Source: Azorinus chamasolen
Lineage: Eukaryota > Mollusca > Bivalvia > Cardiida > Solecurtidae
Direction of reading: 5' to 3'
Length of the DNA stretch: 64,000 nucleotides
Assembly: GCA_963576725.1 (NCBI GenBank)
Contig: OY755240.1
Coordinates: 18,067,743 to 18,131,742, forward strand
Part shown: positions 7,472 through 63,917 of the stretch, one piece after another
Position numbering within the stretch: the first letter of the stretch is position 1
Layout: every line of letters starts with the position of its first letter
Translations under genes and position numbers: made by a program
The notes under the pieces: generated by a model
What the model was told of the DNA's origin: nothing
The model's input: only the letters and a program-made list of their open reading frames with translations
Databases searched by the model: none

Positions 7472-7536
7472 TAGTACAGATATCCGACGTTCTCCTTCCA
7501 TTTCTGGATTTAAGAGGTCGCCTTCATAGAGTACTA
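7472..7536 (-). promoter_or_regulatory. SECIS element of the truncated Naiad copy
   Basis: By eye the 65 bases are identical to the SECIS at 24257-24321, read on the minus strand. They overlap the TAG stop in the same way. Confidence 0.85.
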
Positions 7537-8384
7537 AACCTTTCTTGTCGGCCTACATGCAAAGAGGCCAACGTGATTGCCAACTGTAAAAGGGTTCACA
7601 ACCAAACATGCAGTATGTTGTAGTAATACAGGATCATATCCCTTTTTAATGAATTGTTTTATATATTTGATGAACAAAGTGAGAAAATGGGTATGTCCAA
7701 TAATTTTACGAAGTTTGTAAATCACATCACAATAAAATTCAGGATGTGAAATACCGTGTCGCAAAAGTACCTTGAGATTACATTTGTACTTGCCAATAAA
7801 CAAGAGATTTCGATAGTAAAATTTAGAGAAAGTTTTTCTTAGTTTATGGTATCTATATCCTTGCTTAAGCAGTTTTTCAGTTAAAATGAGATTTCGACTG
7901 TTAAAATCGTCAATAGATGAACAAGCTCTAGCAAAACGAATAAGTTGAGATATATAAACCCCGTAAGATGGAGCACGTGGAACATCCCCGTCAAGATGAG
8001 GAAAATTTACAATATTAAAATCAAAATCATCTCTTTTGTCATATATTTTAGAAGAAATCATTCCATTATTAATTTTAAGGTCTAGGTCAAGAAACGCTGC
8101 ATAATTGTCGGACGGGTTAGCTTTATTCACTTTGAGTTCTTTAGGATAAATCATAGGAATCAGAGCATCAAAGAAAGGGTTGTCTAAGTTAAAAATATCA
8201 TCCAAATATCGACAAGTTTCATTGAAGGCTTTTATAACATCTTCTTGTGATTGAGGATTCAAACTCAACATGAAATCTCTCTCATAGAAGTACAAAAACA
8301 AATCTGCGACAAGTAGTGCACAATTCGTACCCATGGGAATGCCAATTACCCGACGGTATATAGCATTCCCGTAACGGACTGATA
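7534..8384 (-). pseudogene. Naiad reverse transcriptase, C-terminal fragment
   Basis: The frame is open from the 5' truncation to TAG at 7534-7536. It contains motif B (GIPMGTNCA), motif C (RYLDDIFNLD) and the thumb region with RAPSYGVYISQLIRFA and YRYHKLRKTFSKFYYRN. The motif A aspartate and the whole endonuclease are missing through 5' truncation, so it cannot be autonomous. The sequence is nearly the same as residues 785-1063 of the full-length protein. Confidence 0.9.
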
Positions 8385-9516: not shown

Positions 9517-9795
9517 AAGTACACATATGAGTTATGCAGTAAACATCATATACAAAACACACCACGAGAAAACAAAGCAAATGTAATAATAACTATCAAA
9601 ACACAAAGAGACGCAAAATGATAAAGCAAACAAACAATAGTGGAAGTACCGCCTTGGAACAGTCATTGCCAATAGTCACTGGGTGTTTAAACCGGTTTAG
9701 GGGCGCCCAACCTCACACTTATACCGTCCCCACCCTAAAAGACAATCAGGATAAATAAACGTATCCCCTACAAACTAATCTACAAGAATCCAAGT
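9517..9795 (-). mobile_element. Naiad 3'-UTR fragment, type A
   Basis: Diverged minus-strand match to the Naiad 3' UTR, including the conserved AAACCGGTTT block at about 9691 and the complement of GGTACTTCC. No coding part remains. Confidence 0.8.
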
Positions 9796-12542: not shown

Positions 12543-12607
12543 TAATACATGAGTCTGGTAAGCTCCTCCTGTATCCAAGTTTAAGAGTATACCATCATAG
12601 AGTACTA
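12543..12607 (-). promoter_or_regulatory. SECIS element, type B Naiad
   Basis: On the minus strand: helix I TAGTAC / GTATTA, quartet ATGA, helix II TGGTATACTCTT paired with AGGAGCTTACC, an unpaired AAA, then the 3' AGAC side of the quartet. Compared with type A, GGCG/CGTC has become GGTA/TACC, and GTACTA has become GTATTA (G-U instead of G-C). The pairing is kept while the sequence changes, which supports a selected RNA fold. It overlaps the TAG stop. Confidence 0.82.
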
Positions 12608-13635
12608 CCCTCGGCCTGTCATCGCGCAAGCAAAGAGGGAAGCGTAGCTACCGACTGTAAAAGGGTCGATAACCAAACATGCAGTGTGTTGCAATATAAT
12701 AGGATCATAACCTTTCTTTTTAAATTTTTTAATGCGTTTTATAAACAAATCATGAAAATGGATATGACCCCGAATTTTCCTAAGTTTGTAGATAACATCC
12801 CCATAAAATTCTGTTTGAGAAATGCCTTGTCGCAGTAACGTCCGTAGATTGCAATTATATTTACTAATGAGAGGTAAATTTCGATAATAAAATTTAGAAA
12901 AGGTTTTCCGAAGTTTGTGATATCTGTAACCTTGCTTAAGAAGTTTATCAGTTATAACTAAATTACGTCTGTTAAAATCTTCAAGCAAAGAACAGGCTCG
13001 GGCAAACCTAATAAGTTGAGAAATATAAACACCATAAGATGTAGAACGTGGCACATCCCCATCTAGAAAAGGATAATTAACAATTTTAAAATTAAAATCT
13101 TCTCTTTTATCGTATACTTTGGACGAAACTTTATCATTTGTAATTGAAAGATTCAAATCTAGAAATGAAGCATTAATGTCAGATTGATTAGCTTTGTTTA
13201 AAGACAGTTCTTTTGGGTAGATTGAAGAAACCATAGTATCAAAATAAGGATTATCTAAATTCAAAATATCGTCTAAATACCTTGAAGTTTTATTATAAGC
13301 ATTAACAATATCGGTCTGTGTATCAGGTTTTAAGCTAAGCATAAAATCCCTCTCGTAGCAATACAAAAACAAATCTGCAACACGAGGGGCACAATTTGTA
13401 CCCATGGGTATACCAACAACTTGACGATATATGGTATCTCCATAACGCACAAATATATTATCTAAAAGAAAGGTAAGAGATCTACAAACATCAAGGCAAG
13501 TCCACATTGTGTAATGTTCAACTTCTGAATTCGAAAAGAATGAACGTTGAACATTACAAGCAATGAACATTTTGTTTTCTCTGGCAAAGGTTTTTTTCTA
13601 TTAATTTAATAAGTCTATCCTTTATAAGAACACTT
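12605..13635 (-). pseudogene. Naiad type B reverse transcriptase, partial and frameshifted
   Basis: The long open part (12605-13570) contains GIPMGTNCAP (motif B), SRYLDDILNLD (motif C) and the thumb blocks STSYGVYISQLIRFA and YRYHKLRKTFSKFYYRN. It ends in TAG. Upstream, VLIKDRLIKLIEK is in another frame, and one extra base in an A-run near 13593 separates it from TFARENKMFIACN. Motif A and the endonuclease are lost to 5' truncation. No TGA sites fall within the surviving part. Confidence 0.88.
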
Positions 13636-20740: not shown

Positions 20741-21067
20741 TTTAAACTAAGAGCAACTCGCGCACTTTACACATACATATGTTGTGTACAGTGACGTCAT
20801 AATGTGACGTGTTTGTATGTCGAAAATGTAAGTCAAAATTAATTGTGACGTGTTTATGTAGGTTTTTGTAATCATAAACTATCACAGTTAAATTGAATAC
20901 CAGAGATGTCTTAATTAGATCCTGGTTGATATGACAGTAAATCAAAAACCAGTTGGAAAGTTTGGACCAACTTGTGTTCACCAACAATTTGATGCACTTG
21001 GTAGCTACACTTATGTAATTGACGTGTTGTTGAACACAATACAGGTGCCCCTCTATCACTTTCCAAT

Positions 21068-24000
21068 ATGAATAAAGTTAAAATACCTCGAATAGAACTA
21101 AAAGCTTTAAATATGCAATCTGTGTCGTCTGTACAAGTACCCAGAAATATTTCTAATTTCTCTTCCCTTCAACCTTTTGTTCGTTTAAAACAACTTAATC
21201 TTCAGTCGGCTTCATCTTTTCACATACCATCTCTTTCTATTAATAAATGTTTTTTCAATGGACCAAGAGTTGTACTTTCACCTTTAAAATCTGTTATCCA
21301 AAATGTTTCTTCTATTCGTAAACGGTCCTTATGCAGACGACACAGAGTGTATCCAATTATCCAAAAGTGCTTTGCTAAGAGGTGCATATGTTGTAGTAAC
21401 ATTTCTTGTAATTCCACTATAAAATCTACAGTTAATGGTAGAACATTTAATGTCAAGATAAACTCAGACGTTGATTGTACTACTACTAACGTTATTTATG
21501 TTTTAATTTGAAACGCGCCTAGTTGCGGTATACAGTACGTAGGACAAACAGGACGTGCTTTGAAAACTCGATTTCGTGAGCATGCATATCAGTGTCGAAA
21601 TCGTAAACTAAACAATTTTTTATACCAACACTTTCGGAAATCTGGCCATTCTTTTAAAGATGTTTTAGTACAAATTGTTGAGCATATAACATACGATAAG
21701 GAGGCGACTAGTAGCTTTAAATCGAAAGCTAGATTTATATCTGAATTAAATTGGATCAAAAAATTGCAAACACCTTTTCCTTTAGGACTGAATGATAATA
21801 TTTACCAGACTGGAAATATTTCAAAAGAACCAGATATAGATATTTTTTCAATTTTTTCTATTAGAAAACGCAAATCTCGATCGCATGGCATTCGCAAGAA
21901 TGGTAATATTAAACGAAAATCTCGTTTGAAATTGACTCTTCTTGATCTACATACTTTACGCCTAATTTCGGGTAAACATGCCATGCTTTCTAGACTTTCC
22001 TCCTTATCTATATGTTCATTAAAAGAAATTGACGAGCAAGCCGATAAAATTATTTTTCGATCAGATCCTCTCATAGGAACTGCTAGTTTGATACAAAGCT
22101 TTACTCTACATGTTCTCAGACCGCACATCGACAAATTATCTGAACACCAAAGATTCTTCTTGAAAATTCCTTTTATTAATAAAGGTATTGATTTTATTGA
22201 CCTACAAAGTATTTTTAGAGACAAAAATGTAATTGACACTATTCCTAAATACTTTAAAAATACAGAACCACCTATCATCTGCTACAAATATAACAAACCC
22301 ATCAGAAATACAATTTTCAACTACAATAAAATTGTGGCCGACCTTAATATTAATGATAATATTCCTGATAATTGAGATTGCGCCACCTCAAAATTTTGCT
22401 ATTCTCCGGCTGGTCATGTGATTACTGGTAATTTTGAGATAATTAAAGATAAACGTCTACGATCTCTTTTGAATAAAGGTCCCAAATATAGAATACCATC
22501 CTTGATAGATTTTAACTCTTGTCGAGTTCAGATTGCGGAGGCTTTACAAAATTTTAGTATTAAATGGTGTCGAAGAGAACATGTTGAGTCTACTGCCCTT
22601 TCTTGTTGGAAAAAACTAATTTTTGATATAATTGATAAACGCATTTCCTTTTACAGCTCTAATAAACACCTTCTTCCACCTAAACCTAGAACTTCATTTA
22701 GACATCTTAAAAAGGGTTTACAGGATTTCCATTCAAAATACGTTTTTGTTCCTGCTGATAAGGCATCAAATAATATGATTATTATTTGACGATTACATTA
22801 TATCGATGTCTTGAAGCAGGAAATTACTAATACCAAGTCATACATTTCAGTTACCACTGACGAAAAGACCATCATTTCAGACCATGTCAAAAAGTGTGAA
22901 CAATTTGGAACCGATATTAAAATTACACAACATAAACTTCCTACTATGTATTGGTTACCAAAACTACATAAAAAACCATATAAAGCGCGTTTCATTGCAA
23001 ATTCTAGTTCATGTACAACTACTAAATTGTCTATACTTTTGACTTCTTGCTTAACGAAGGTAAAGGAACATTTAAGATTTTACTGTGATAAGACTTATGA
23101 AAATTCTGGAATAAATCTCTTCTGGTCTATTAAGAACTCTTCAGAAGTCTTAAACAAACTTAAGAACAAAAGGTATCTTGCATCCACTGTAAGCACGTAC
23201 GATTTTTCTACTCTGTACACAACTCTTCCTCATGTTTTAATTAAGGATAAGCTTACTAACTTGATCCAGAAAGTATTTGCCCGAGAAAAAACATCATTCT
23301 TGGCATGTAATGCTGAAAAAGCTTTCTTTACTGACGAGCAAATGAAGTATTACACCAATTGGACTTGCTCAGAAGTTTGCGAAGCACTAACCTTTCTTTT
23401 GGACAACATATTTGTACGTTATGGGAATGCTATATACCGTCAGGTAATTGGTATTCCCATGGGTACGAATTGTGCACCACTTGTCGCAGATTTGTTTTTG
23501 TACTGCTATGAGAGAGATTTCATGTTGAGTTTGAATCCTCAATCACAAGAAGATGTTATAAAAGCCTTCAATGATACTTGTCGATATTTGGATGATATTT
23601 TTAACTTAGATAACCCTTTCTTTAATGCTCTGATTCCTACAATTTATCCTAAAGAACTCAAATTGAATAAAGCTAACCCGTCCGACAATTATGCAGCGTT
23701 TCTTGACCTAGACCTTAAAATTAATAATGGAATGATTTCTTCTAAAATATATGACAAAAGAGATGATTTTGATTTTAATATTGTAAATTTTCCTCATCTT
23801 GACGGGGATGTTCCCCGTGCTCCATCTTACGGGGTTTATATATCTCAACTTATTCGTTTTGCTAGAGCTTGTTCATCTATTGACGATTTTAACAGTCGAA
23901 ATCTCATTTTAACTGAAAAACTGCTTAAACAAGGATATAGATACCATAAACTAAGAAAAACTTTCTCTAAATTTTACTATCGAAATCTCTCGCTTATTGG

Positions 24001-24259
24001 CAAGTACAAATGTAATCTCAAGGTACTTTTGCGACACGGTATTTCACATCCTGAATTTTATGGTGATGTGATTTACAAACTTCGTAGGATTATTGGACAT
24101 ACCCATTTTCTCACTTTGTTCATCAAATATATAAAACAATTCATTAAAAAGGGATATGATCCTGTATTATTACAACATACTGCATGTTTGGTTGTGAACC
24201 CTTTTACAGTTGGCAATCACGCTGGCCTCTTTGCATGTACGCCGACAAGAAAGGTTTAG
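21068..24259 (+). CDS. Naiad GIY-YIG endonuclease / reverse transcriptase, three in-frame TGA (Sec) codons
   Basis: One frame of 1064 codons, ending in TAG. Residues 1-147 are basic and include a cysteine cluster (CICCSNISC) and TVNGRTF. TGA codon 148 stands where the first Cys of the CCHH finger next to GIY-YIG is expected (U-NAPSC). GIQYVGQTGR (154-163) is the GIY-YIG core, and E226 in ISELNWIKKL is the likely catalytic Glu. TGA codon 436 (N-U-DC) replaces the first Cys of the CxC linker. TGA codon 574 follows NNMIII. RT follows: YWLPKLHKKP, motif A YDFSTLYTTLPH (D712), motif B GIPMGTNCAP (from 795), motif C YLDD (D842, D843), then the thumb. The endonuclease nicks DNA and the RT primes from the nick. 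The start is the first ATG after an in-frame TGA 48 bases upstream. No frameshift, TAA or internal TAG occurs. Confidence 0.9.
21509..21511 (+). promoter_or_regulatory. In-frame TGA, predicted selenocysteine codon 1
   Basis: Codon 148, between IYVLI and NAPSCGIQYVG. Related elements are expected to have Cys here (first Cys of the CCHH motif). Confidence 0.8.
22373..22375 (+). promoter_or_regulatory. In-frame TGA, predicted selenocysteine codon 2
   Basis: Codon 436, in DN-U-DCATSKF. The context is the CxC motif that links endonuclease and RT in this clade. Confidence 0.8.
22787..22789 (+). promoter_or_regulatory. In-frame TGA, predicted selenocysteine codon 3
   Basis: Codon 574, in NNMIII-U-RLHYIDVLKQE, at the start of the RT domain. 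A Cys in relatives is expected but not verified. Confidence 0.75.
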
Positions 24260-24321
24260 TACTCTATGAAGGCGACCTCTTAAATCCAGAAATGGAAGGA
24301 GAACGTCGGATATCTGTACTA
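24257..24321 (+). promoter_or_regulatory. SECIS element overlapping the stop codon
   Basis: Helix I TAGTAC (24257-24262, starting with the TAG stop) pairs with GTACTA (24316-24321). The quartet is ATGA (24266-24269) against GGAT (24308-24311), giving the tandem G-A pairs. Helix II GGCGACCTCTT (24271-24281) pairs with AAGGAGAACGTC, with a small internal mismatch. AAA (24282-24284) is unpaired, followed by the mini-hairpin TCCA-GAAA-TGGA. This is the form 2 SECIS layout. Such an element recruits SBP2 and the selenocysteine elongation factor so that UGA is read as Sec. Confidence 0.85.
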
Positions 24322-24767
24322 TTTCATTTTTGTCGTACCCTTTATTACTTTTCTACAGTTACTCTGTTTGCAGCTCAATCATTGAGTACACTAGCGATAG
24401 GTGGATACAGTATGTTCAATTAAATGTTTTTTTGTTATACATGCACTTTACAACTGTATTTGCTGTCGCGGTTGTTGTAGATTAGTCGGAGAGGGGATAC
24501 GTTTATTTACACTGTTTGTCTTTTAGGATGGGGATGGAATAAGGGTGAGGTTGGGCGCCCATAAACCGGTTTAAACCCCCGGTGACTTTTGTCACTGACC
24601 GTTCCAAGGCGGTACTTCCATCTTCCTCCTATTGAATGTTTGTTTTGTCTTTGTGCGTCTCTTGTTGTTTTTTCTACCCATGTACATTTGCTGTTTCCTT
24701 GTGTTGCTGTTCGGGCGAGTGTTTGTTCTGTATGTGGTATTTCCTGCATGACTCATTTTTGTACTTC
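24322..24767 (+). other. Naiad 3' UTR
   Basis: Conserved between copies. It contains AAACCGGTTTAAACC (24563-24577), the hairpin GTGAC-TTTT-GTCAC (24582-24595) and GGCGGTACTTCC. Most solo fragments in the window derive from this part, as expected for 5'-truncating retroelements. Confidence 0.8.
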
Positions 24768-58039: not shown

Positions 58040-58246
58040 ACCTGGGTCCATGCTTATAAAGCTTTTAGTTGAGTCTGAGTTTCTTTCTCAAGCTTTTGAT
58101 TGGTCAGATTTGAGCCTCTGGCTCAGATTTGAGTTCTCAAGTTTTTGATTGGTCAGATTTGAGCCAGAGGCTCAAATCTGACCAATCAAAAGCTTGAGAA
58201 CGTACTCAGACTCAACTAAAAGTTTTATAAGCATGGACCCAGGTCG
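58040..58246. mobile_element. Long fold-back element FB1, copy 1
   Basis: Outer arms GGGTCCATGCTTATAAAGCT and GTTTTATAAGCATGGACCC. The inner arms mirror CAAGCTTTTGATTGGTCAGA / TCTGACCAATCAAAAGCTTG. The module TTGATTGGTCAGATTTGAG is duplicated on the left side only. Confidence 0.85.
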
Positions 58247-59730: not shown

Positions 59731-59845
59731 AATTGTAAAAAGCCATTTTATGGAGTAATGGGTTAAGCCTTACAGACCGATAATTAGATCTCTTTTTGAT
59801 GGCCGCTTAAGACACGCTCTACTGTGTAAGACCATAACAACATCA

Positions 59846-60033
59846 GGGTCCATGGTTATAAAACTTTTAGTTGAGTCTGAGTTCGTTCTCAAGTTTTTGA
59901 TTGGTCAGATTTGAGCCTTTGGCTCAAATCTGACCAATCAAAAGTTTGAGAACTCAAATCTGACCAATCAAAAGCTTGAGAACGAACTCAGACTCTACTA
60001 AAAAGCTTTATAAGCATGGACCCTGGATCTAGA
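59846..60033. mobile_element. Long fold-back element FB1, copy 2
   Basis: Same arms as 58040-58246, but the duplicated TGACCAATCAAAAG module lies on the right side, so the copy is inverted or independently rearranged. Confidence 0.85.
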
Positions 60034-60180: not shown

Positions 60181-60243
60181 CATAAACATCCTGATTAGAC
60201 GCCGGATTGCTCTGCGTCTCATCTGGGTCAAACATTTTTGCTT
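60181..60243. repeat. Hairpin-family repeat at the LINE 5' edge
   Basis: CATCCTGATTAGACGCC / GCGTCTCATCTGGGTCAAAC. It lies just before the first ATG of the LINE frame and reads through in frame with it, which makes the upstream extension of that frame unreliable. Confidence 0.6.
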
Positions 60244-60266
60244 TTGATAATCTGAGACCTTGCCCA

Positions 60267-63200
60267 ATGTCAGTGATGGGGTTAATATCAGTCGCAGGCT
60301 CGACTACAATACCAGGCGCCCGGGTTCGATCCCAATGCGGAACGCGTCCTTTGGACAAGACTATATATACACCGAGGTCCGATCCGGACAGTGGTGACCC
60401 GTTAGTAAGACTGGAAGGTACCGGAAGGTCTGTTAGAATCGGTTGTTTAAATGTATGTGGTATAATTTCTAGACTAAGGTGTCCAGACTTTCTTGAATGG
60501 CTGGGGAAATATGATATAGTGTGTCTGCAAGAAACAAAGACTGACGACTCAGATGTAATACAGGTACCAGGGTATAAAGTACATATGTTTAGCAGACAAA
60601 AACTATCAAGGTACCGGTCTGGTGGGTTAGCACTATTAGTGAAGACTGAGATTGCCCAACATGTTATACTTGACAACAGTTCTAAAAGTTCTTTGGTAAA
60701 ATTCTTCAAGATATCTAAAAATGTGTATACTTCGAATAGCAATGAAGATTTGGTATGCGGGATGGTGTATATCCCACCTTGTGGTTCTAAGTATGCACAC
60801 ACGGATCCTTTCTTTGAACTGCAAAACGAGGTTCTAAGATATTGTCTAGATTATAAGCATATACTTTTGCTGGGCGATTTCAATTCAAGATGTGGAAGTA
60901 TGTCTGAATATGTTCACACTGATGATATTTTGTTAGACATGTTTGATCTTGACAGTATTGAAAATGAAGATGCTGAAATATTTAGAAAATTCGAACTTTA
61001 TGATATCCCAGTGGATAGGACACATACTGATAATGTTGTAAATAACTACGGTAGACAATTTATAGAGTTTTGTAAGGCAAATAATCTTTTTATCTGGAAT
61101 GGCAGAATAGGAGACGAGGCGACAGAACCTAAACGCACATGTAAAGATAAAAGTGTAATAGATTACTGTATTTCAACATCATATGTCTTTGAAAATATTG
61201 CTACATTTTGTATAGAAGAATACTGTGAACTGTACTCTGATATTCACTGCCCATTAACTATTGAACTCCAGACGAAATTCAATGGTAACAGCTGTAACAT
61301 TAGGCATGAATCCCCGCAGAATAGAACGAAACTGTGGGATAGGCGGAATCCCGAGTTATTTTATGAAAACATTGATAATGCACAGTTGCAGCATATTGAA
61401 AACAAGTTAGATTCACTTTCAATGGGGGGAAATATTACGAAATCTGATGTTAATAGTATTGTTGATGAAATAACATCCTTATTCAGTGACAGTGCAAAAG
61501 AAGCCTTTGGAACTGTAGGATCACATAAACAGAATAATAGAGTTCAAAAACGTACACCATGGTTCAACTCGACATGCCAGCACTTGAGAAACCGGTATCA
61601 TTACATCAGGAAAGCGTACAATAAATATAAAACAGCAGACCTGAAAACCACATTAAAAACAGTAAGCAAACAGTATAAAACAACTCTTAGACAGGCACAC
61701 CAAAGATACAATGCAAAAAAGGTAAATACACTCAGAAAACTTAAGAACACAGATCCAAAACAATACTGGAAAATCATTAACACAGATAATACAGAAAAAG
61801 TAGCACAGGCAAGCCTTGAACAATTTTACAACTATTTCAAGGAACAAAATCAGAAAACATTAGACAGTAATAATTTGCATGACCATACCGAGGCACTGAA
61901 TGCTGACACACACGAAACACATCTAAACGAATGCATAAATAGTCCCATAGAAGAGAAAGACATACTAGAAGCTGTTAAATCTTTAAAAAACGGTAAATCA
62001 CCGGGCATAGATAACATACTTAATGAACATATCAAAAGTACAATAAACCTGATGATGCCAATATACGTTAAGCTTTTCAATATAGTTTTCGATACTGGAC
62101 TTGTGCCAGAAACATGGACAGATGGATTGATAAAGCCCATATATAAACAGAAAGGTGACCCCGAAAAGCCGGAAAACTACCGGCCTATATCATTGCTTAG
62201 CTGTACTGGTAAGCTATTTACAAGCATTTTAAATAACAGACTGAATAAATATGCTGAAGAAAATCATACCATCAAAAATACACAAGCAGGTTTCAGAAAG
62301 CATCATTCGACAGTAGATAACATATTTATATTGAAGAGTCTAATTGATATTTTGCAAACAGATAAGAAAAAAATGTACTGCTGCTTTATAGACTTCAAAC
62401 AGGCATTTGACTCAGTGTGGCGACAAGGATTATGGTATAAACTTCATAAAGAAAGTATAGATGGTAAATGTTTTAATGTAATATACAATATTTATAACAA
62501 TATAAAGTCAAGAGTAGTAACAGCAGAGGGTACCTCTTCCCCATGTTTCAGCTTAGTTGGAGTGCGGCAGGGAGAAAACCTCTCACCTTTCCTGTTTTCA
62601 ATCTAACTAAACGATTTGGAGAACTTCCTGGAAAGCAGTGGTGTAGCCGGAGTCTCTAGAGAGACGATGGTCGAAGGTGCCCGAATATTCGTGAAATTGT
62701 GCATTCTTCTCTATGCAGATGACACGGTGATCTTTAGTGATGACCCTGATGATTTACAAAATGCTCTAGATATATTTAGTCAATACTGCACAAATTGGAA
62801 ACTGAAAGTAAACGTATCTAAGACAAAAATAATGGTTATATCTAGAGGTCGCTTTAAAAATACGCATAAATTCAAAATTGGGGATGAGTATATAGAACAG
62901 ACAGATGAATATAAATATTTGGGATTGTATCTGTCTAAAAGTGGGTCCTTTTGCAGGGCTAAGACACATATCGCTGAACAGGCAAACAAAGCAATGTTTT
63001 CGCTACTTAAGAAAATAAAAAGACTCTCTCTGCCATATGACTTACAAATAGAACTACATGTATTTGAAAAAACTGTTAAACCGATACTGCTTTACGGGAG
63101 TGAATTATGGGGCTATGGCAAGTATGATACATTGGAGAAAGTACAGCTCAAATTTTATAAGTATATCTTCCAATTGAAAAAATCGACACCATCAAATATG

Positions 63201-63917
63201 ATCTATGGTGAACTTGGGATCACTCCCCTCTCGGTAGATATCAATAATAAAGTAATCACATACTGGTCTAGACTGATCGACAACTTAAATGGTGATAATA
63301 CTAAACTGGCATCTCACATTTACTACATTATATACGGGTTACACAGTCAGAGATTACTGAAATCACAATGGATCGATAATGTTAAAAACAAGCTTTGCCA
63401 CTTAGGATTTTCAGGAATCTGGTACAGTCAGAGTTTTATAAATTCAATGTGGTTGAAAAAGGCAACGCTACAGAAACTCAAGGATATTTTCATTCAGTCT
63501 TGGCACTCTGACATAGACAGGACATCAAATACAAATATGTACAAACACATAAAAACATCTTTCAAACAAGCACATTGTATAAAACATCTCTCAACTTACC
63601 ATTGCAAAAATCTGATTGCATTCATAACGAGAAATCACCATTTACCTGTGGAAACTGGTCGATGGCAAAACATACCGGCAAACCAACGGAAATGTCCATA
63701 CTGCATAGATATAGGTGATGAATTCCATTATATCCTGACATGTCCCTTTTTCCATGAATACCGCAGAAAATATATCAAAAAGAAATACTACAGAAGTCCA
63801 AACATGTTGAAATTTATAGACATGTTCTCCAGTAAAAACAGTACAGAACTTAAGAAACTGAGTATATTTTGCAAAATCATAATGGCACATTTTAGGAATA
63901 TCCTTAATAGAACATGA
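60267..63917 (+). pseudogene. LINE ORF2: endonuclease + reverse transcriptase, one in-frame TAA
   Basis: One frame of 1217 codons from the first ATG to TGA, broken only by TAA at 62604-62606 (codon 780). The AP endonuclease covers about residues 55-340: RIGCLNVCG, CLQETKTDD, LLGDFNSR (from about 201) and YSDIHCPL. The RT has GKSPGIDN, NYRPISLLSC, FIDFKQAFDS (motif A, D709), GVRQGENLSPFLFSI (motif B) and LLYADD (motif C, D818/D819). A C-terminal Cys/His cluster, CPYCIDIGDEFHYILTC, follows. The protein would nick target DNA and reverse-transcribe the element RNA in place. The stop falls between motifs B and C, so the predicted product lacks the catalytic DD. No ORF1 was seen upstream. CR1/L2-like is my best guess for the clade. 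Confidence 0.88.

Follow-up and report, generated by a model that had tools for sequence, protein, structure and literature searches.

A young Naiad-type Penelope-like retrotransposon of the bivalve Azorinus chamasolen very probably encodes a selenoprotein with three in-frame UGA codons

Penelope-like retrotransposons of the Naiad type reportedly possess an N-terminal GIY-YIG endonuclease, a CCHH motif and a CxC linker, are arranged in tandem or as pseudo-long terminal repeats (pseudo-LTRs) and lack a hammerhead ribozyme; an insertion-in-fingers domain and a bias towards insertion at microsatellites are said to be further features. Naiads which code for selenoproteins have reportedly been described in clams and spiders. 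Few genes code for selenoproteins, and most of these belong to the host; selenoprotein P is an animal selenoprotein with several selenocysteine (Sec) residues, and its UGA codons are served by a 3′ selenocysteine insertion sequence (SECIS). The element studied here is a member of the known kind of selenoprotein-coding Naiads. It lies in a 64,000-nucleotide stretch of Azorinus chamasolen DNA (assembly GCA_963576725.1, contig OY755240.1, positions 18,067,743 to 18,131,742 of the forward strand), which is called the window below. We read it as a young Penelope-like retrotransposon of the Naiad type, the one protein of which appears to be a selenoprotein, and give this reading a probability of roughly 0.92. 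The window copy belongs to subfamily A, and a second subfamily, B, is present in the same genome. The main features of the window copy are:

20972-24766, forward strand: Naiad element segment of subfamily A, delimited by blastn of 30 loci and shared with the majority of the other 29

21068-24259, forward strand: open reading frame (ORF) of a permuted Penelope-like protein with three in-frame TGA codons, predicted to carry an N-terminal GIY-YIG endonuclease and a C-terminal reverse transcriptase (RT)

21368-21478, forward strand: Cys group I (C101, C106, C109 and C137); residue 137 is TGT in the window copy and TGA in subfamily B

21491-21796, forward strand: GIY-YIG endonuclease region, roughly residues 142-243, which includes the CCHH set (148/153/172/188) and is placed by conserved columns and a weak Pfam match in subfamily B

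21509-21511, forward strand: TGA codon 148, putative Sec at the first Cys of the CCHH set

22373-22375, forward strand: TGA codon 436, putative Sec at the first Cys of the CxC linker (U-D-C)

22787-22789, forward strand: TGA codon 574, putative Sec at a conserved Cys of the N-terminal RT part, where a predicted strand ends

24257-24259, forward strand: TAG terminator of the ORF, which in the predicted RNA fold doubles as the base of SECIS helix I

24258-24320, forward strand: predicted SECIS that has an additional helix at its apex (helix I; AUGA/GA core; internal bulge with AAA; helix III)

The ORF is a single frame of 1,063 codons followed by TAG, and its internal stops are all TGA. An earlier note on this DNA had described this interrupted frame, and its coordinates and codon numbers proved correct on re-reading. 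Based on a comparison of the flanks, most of the other fetched copies run on upstream of the shared segment into sequence common to them, and therefore the window copy looks truncated within its 5′ untranslated part, with the ORF whole.

Relatives were collected by a protein search in which TGA was written as U (handled as C). The search gave 38 proteins, 34 of which were aligned with the query; P0033, P0036 (a pearl oyster record), P0037 and P0038 were left out. The earlier note had proposed to look for Cys at the three sites in relatives, and this is what is found: at 148 in 20/20 covering rows, at 436 in 32/34 and at 574 in 31/34. The non-Cys rows have Trp (W): P0002 and P0004 at both 436 and 574, and P0003 at 574. 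A gene caller which reads TGA as Trp writes W at such near-invariant Cys positions, so these rows probably represent TGA codons of other genomes. Realignment with X at the sites, in three MAFFT modes and with and without subfamily B, gave identical Cys counts; that the sites fall on Cys columns is therefore not an effect of reading TGA as C. Nine columns contain at least 90% Cys with at least ten covering relatives (101, 106, 109, 137, 148, 153, 436, 438 and 574), and the chance that three random codons of the 1,063 all fall on such columns is 4.2e-7. The fourth TGA of subfamily B, at 137, is on another of the nine. In P0001, which is 56% identical to the query, both 436 and 574 are Cys.

A second search used the 489 residues behind site 574; among the best 120 of 3,750 matches, 12 span the site, with Cys in nine and Trp in three. 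A tree of 27 rows (25 chosen proteins, A and B) contains a clade of 15 (support 100/100, with its deepest forks drawn open) that includes A, B, the W rows, the group with Cys at 574, P0001 and P0003. By this placement, Sec-or-W and Cys alternate among the relatives. P0111, also in the tree set, has Gln at 436, within a stretch unlike Naiad. Outside these protein sets, a scan of IMG/VR gave 56 pattern-matching stretches, none of them a relative, and contigs of GTDB genomes gave 12 matching stretches, of which two are relatives: L048, on a contig of a Maribacter metagenome-assembled genome (MAG), and L049, on a Thiodubiliella MAG contig. Both have Cys at 574 and L048 also at 436. At 148, the pairwise BLAST alignment places a gap in L048 and a Cys two columns further; the realignment with X was made on this account, and there 148 is Cys in all covering rows. 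The two loci are probably host or environmental DNA wrongly binned with bacteria. Among the relatives, some come from bins of bivalve-associated symbionts.

Concerning the domains, Pfam support is weak: the window protein has no Pfam match, the subfamily B protein matches GIY-YIG at residues 142-190 with 18.1 bits (cut-off 22.6), and the relative P0005 reaches 20.5 bits with GIY-YIG and 28.0 bits with RVT_1, each under its cut-off. The domain assignment is based on the alignment with Naiad-like proteins, in the conserved columns of which GIY-YIG lies N-terminal to the RT. The rest of the CCHH set is also conserved in the covering relatives (153: Cys in 20/20; 172: His in 23/23; 188: His in 25/26), and the set of the window protein holds only with Sec in place of Cys at 148. 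The second column of the CxC linker, 438, is Cys in 34/34. The earlier note had assigned two of the TGA codons to Cys positions of the CCHH and CxC motifs; both assignments are borne out, and 574 can be added as a conserved Cys column. The putative catalytic residues of the RT, D712, D842 and D843, are present, with Asp in 33/33, 32/32 and 31/32 relatives, respectively. Further towards the N-terminus, Cys is found at 101, 106, 109 and 137 in 17/17, 17/17, 16/17 and 19/19 covering relatives. Taken together, the conserved columns suggest four groups (C101/C106/C109/C137; C148/C153/H172/H188; C436/C438 with H450; C574), and the Cys groups may be metal sites. The four TGA codons of subfamily B fall one in each group, and the three of subfamily A in the last three groups.

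A sequence search of the PDB with the alignment of query and relatives gave no match. The AlphaFold2 model of the window protein has a mean predicted local distance difference test (pLDDT) score of 81.4 and a predicted template modelling (pTM) score of 0.66. The ten-residue blocks around 148, 436 and 574 have mean pLDDT values of 92, 74 and 93, which we count in favour of the selenoprotein reading; in the model, 148 and 574 would each end a strand and 436 would lie just before a helix. The arrangement of the copies agrees with that of tandem Naiads: head-to-tail A copies are found on C3, C9, C11 and C19 with a spacing of 3,961-3,962 bp, and head-to-tail B copies on C4 and C7 with a spacing of 4,192-4,206 bp. 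At C19:7148400-7174819, five scored A copies point the same way, and four of these follow each other head to tail at intervals of 3,961 bp. No hammerhead family is among the Rfam matches of the window, either at gathering or up to E 5.

Further copies were sought in the 1.72-Gb assembly which contains the window. In the DNA search, the best 40 of 4,146 candidates were scored, and all are near-identical across the whole query. The three TGA codons and the TAG are present in 30/30 fetched A loci (window copy included), with one extra TAA, in L028. In the protein search, 43/43 scored matches, the best of 49,262 candidates, contain three TGA and no TAA or TAG. With a Cys-type query of other origin, TGA is found in 44/44 scored matches (28 with four, one of which also has a TAA, 15 with three and one with five), and with a second Cys-type query in 49/49 (46 with three, one of which also has a TAA, and three with four). 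The scored lists comprise the best-scoring candidates, and this ranking favours intact copies.

The count of sibling codons which the earlier note had proposed gave a uniform picture. In the examined A- and B-like stretches, older fragments included, TGA is found at 148 in 40/40, at 436 in 42/42 and at 574 in 43/43, and the terminator is TAG in 64/64; stops elsewhere amount to 12 (6 TAA and 6 TGA) in 48,444 other codons, a figure read in the query register along gapped alignments, with frameshifts unscored and gap codons included. The window copy was counted once, and L009 (the same place) and matches overlapping a better one by more than 30% were left out. The loci are not a random sample: they are close A matches, or were picked from rows listed with TGA codons (L050-L055). 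Gaps in the reading of the 30 loci number 0-2 in 29/30 and 26 in L022. From a search of the same genome with PF01541, four hits with a TGA inside the GIY-YIG match were fetched, and none of them was counted: L044, L046 and L047 belong to different GIY-YIG elements, which carry the domain close to an ORF end and lone TGAs caused by decay, and L045 has no match.

Subfamily B is also young: the best 40 of 1,172 candidates were scored and are near-identical. The window fragment at 12605-13570 (reverse strand) belongs to this subfamily. The full-length B copy L043, picked by its tandem position, has TGA at 137, 148, 436 and 574. The same four TGA codons are found in L050-L054, which were picked from the matches of the first Cys-type query; L050 has a further TGA at 531, and L051 has one TAA in the search listing, which is unseen in the part aligned. 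The 5′-truncated B loci L040-L042 have TGA at 436 and 574, and L039 begins further downstream. Residue 137 is TGT in 34/34 A-type and TGA in 7/7 B-type examined stretches. Over 1,061 codons, A and B share 70% identity; they are separated by about 1.5 synonymous substitutions per site (dS) and 0.22 nonsynonymous ones (dN), and dN/dS is 0.14. By segment, dN/dS is 0.26 (residues 1-147), 0.08 (149-435), 0.23 (437-573) and 0.13 (575-1063), which points to purifying selection in one frame on either side of each shared TGA.

The hairpin at the end of the ORF matches Rfam SECIS_1 over the full model length in a 1-kb scan (26.0 bits, E 0.015), and the corresponding position of L043 matches too, with 23.2 bits and E 0.027 in a scan of 327 bases. 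Up to E 5, the SECIS matches of the whole window are this one and 7473-7535 (reverse strand). In the predicted fold, the UAG stop opens helix I, AUGA stands opposite GA, AAA lies in an internal bulge and a further helix is found at the apex; we take this to be a form 2 SECIS. The hairpin is identical in 29/30 A loci. Among A, B and a third fragment, the core letters AUGA, AAA and GA are constant, 96.7% of cells pair and five pairs are changed on both sides; with the SECIS partners slid against each other, 37-52% pair and at most one pair is changed on both sides. The covariation was reached by 3/500 shuffles.

As regards the host, 53 candidates were scored for the selenocysteine tRNA (tRNA-Sec) and 35 matches are listed. 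The strongest, C15:42628169-42628254 (reverse strand, 80.7 bits), is a tRNA-Sec gene with anticodon TCA according to both ARAGORN and Rfam. Two other matches have 47.2 bits (cut-off 47) and the rest are below; the control genomes also gave tRNA-Sec matches in 14/14 cases, five of them above the cut-off, which leaves the weak rows with little meaning.

Recoding of the UGA codons as Sec, which the earlier note had proposed, is strongly supported by the Cys columns, the conservation of TGA, the SECIS-like hairpin, the contrast at 137, the selection on the frame and the tRNA-Sec gene. The mRNA of the element would carry a SECIS hairpin which starts inside the UAG stop codon. This hairpin, the host tRNA-Sec and the decoding factors would together place Sec at UGA 148, 436 and 574, and ribosomes would continue past these codons and terminate at UAG, yielding the endonuclease and the RT as one protein. 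Sec would then replace a near-invariant Cys in the CCHH set of the endonuclease, in the CxC linker and in the RT, where a plausible role of selenium is metal binding or a redox-sensing site.

The TGA codons could instead be plain stop mutations of a decaying or trans-mobilised element, the protein being supplied by a stop-free helper copy. Retroelement copies commonly decay, truncated and decayed copies are present here, and the lone TGAs of the three other GIY-YIG elements mentioned above are of this sort; yet the three sites are TGA in every examined covering copy, with only 12 stops in all other codons, and are common to two subfamilies. As for the helper, no TGA-free match is among the 43, 44 and 49 best-scored matches, which does not prove its absence. 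We consider this explanation very improbable, and give the same slight weight to the view that UGA is read by another tRNA, through general or programmed readthrough, rather than as Sec. The Trp of P0002, P0003, P0004, P0111 and P0113 could be real, and Sec is read here from sequence; against this stand the Cys, a chemical cousin of Sec, at these sites in nearly all other covering relatives, the TGA/TGT contrast at 137 and the covarying hairpin at the ORF end. Least probable of all, by a little, is that the UGAs terminate and reinitiation gives the endonuclease and the RT as two proteins. Behind TGA 574 there is indeed a conventional ORF of 482 codons, and among the best 120 relatives of the second search 24 database ORFs start at residue 576 and 17 at 582, but any gene caller yields such starts behind a stop. 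Moreover, each break is on a conserved Cys column, the Cys-type relatives are continuous across the sites, selection acts in one frame across the breaks, and a SECIS would be useless to split proteins.

Several points nevertheless weigh against the selenoprotein reading itself. Insertion of Sec, and transposition driven by the full-length protein, are deduced from DNA, and the search for decoding machinery covered the tRNA-Sec gene. The near-identical copies within a subfamily represent one lineage, which leaves essentially A versus B as the independent contrast, and the dS between these two is near saturation. The W-bearing relatives outside the host genome, which probably have TGA, are known from protein sequence, and in the query the first two Cys positions of the CCHH set are separated by two more residues than in the relatives. 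The SECIS_1 scores of A and B are below the gathering score of 35, and the match has E 0.94 in the whole-window scan, where the SECIS of the B fragment is unlisted up to E 5. Nothing in the whole window matches Rfam at gathering, so the SECIS call is based on the below-gathering matches and on covariation. The latter uses three sequences and a structure taken from one of them, which favours it, and of the five measures taken, the count of further pair types is not above the shuffles.

A more speculative extension of the selenoprotein reading, which we consider possible but unlikely, is that selenium gates transposition: the lineage would keep gaining Sec, one per Cys group (137, 148, 436 and 574), with its activity tied to the selenium of the host. 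As parts of this same doubtful proposal, the three- and four-Sec subfamilies, both of which are young and occur in one genome, might be different stages of build-up, and the SECIS base shared with the stop codon could tie recoding to termination.

The window also contains other copies of the element:

7473-8376, reverse strand: 5′-truncated subfamily A copy, 97.5% identical, with the ORF part at 7534-8376 and its own predicted SECIS at 7473-7535

12544-13597, reverse strand: 5′-truncated subfamily B copy, 70.5% amino acid identity to A, with TAG followed by a predicted SECIS, the span being placed by analogy with L043

49735-49882, reverse strand: 3′-end fragment resembling subfamily B, which includes the TAG and a variant of the SECIS

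Parts of the 3′ untranslated stretch of the element (24413-24766) recur near 9641, 12263, 27433, 39449 and 49457 with 75-92% identity, which suggests insertions with truncated 5′ ends or a tail that another element has in common with this one. Elsewhere in the window, a LINE-like (long interspersed nuclear element) endonuclease-RT frame is found at 60207-63917 (forward strand) in two ORFs, 60207-62606 and 62616-63917, with one TAA inside (row L007 of the genome search). Two nested palindromes at 58040-58244 and 59844-60026, which lie 1.6 kb apart, also form a 118-nt inverted repeat with each other, with 95% complementarity; they are foldback-like and probably the source of the weak matches to microRNA families there.

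A jumping gene tied to the selenium machinery of its host is a rare arrangement. A high-copy transposon with several Sec residues would link genome expansion to selenium metabolism, and the element offers a natural test of multi-UGA recoding. Subfamilies A and B, which share one genome and at one residue have Cys and putative Sec, respectively, provide a matched comparison for the role of Sec in an endonuclease-RT protein. The Naiad paper of Craig, Yushenova, Rodriguez and Arkhipova (2021, Mol Biol Evol 38:5005) is cited by PMC11167929. Among the papers listed in literature searches, none has a title or abstract beginning that deals with selenoprotein-coding Naiads, and the combination of 'penelope-like elements' and 'selenocysteine' gave none. 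We note here, without claiming that they are unpublished, the three- and four-UGA subfamilies together, the Sec/Cys contrast at 137, the presence of a single putative Sec in each Cys group and the overlap of the predicted SECIS with the stop codon.

Compared with known systems, the element resembles the clam and spider Naiads, as these are reported, in its N-terminal GIY-YIG and RT, its CCHH and CxC motifs, its several in-frame UGA codons as putative Sec and its high copy number. The stop-overlapping SECIS and the contrast at 137 are described here from the sequence. The Cys-type Naiad-like proteins (P0005, P0006 and P0009) are collinear with the query, 36-39% identical to it and have the same Cys columns, but differ in that their predicted proteins have Cys at all sites. 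The element is like selenoprotein P in having several UGA codons and a 3′ SECIS. Unlike selenoprotein P, its product would be a transposon enzyme rather than a host protein, and its predicted SECIS begins in the stop codon, not further into the 3′ untranslated region.

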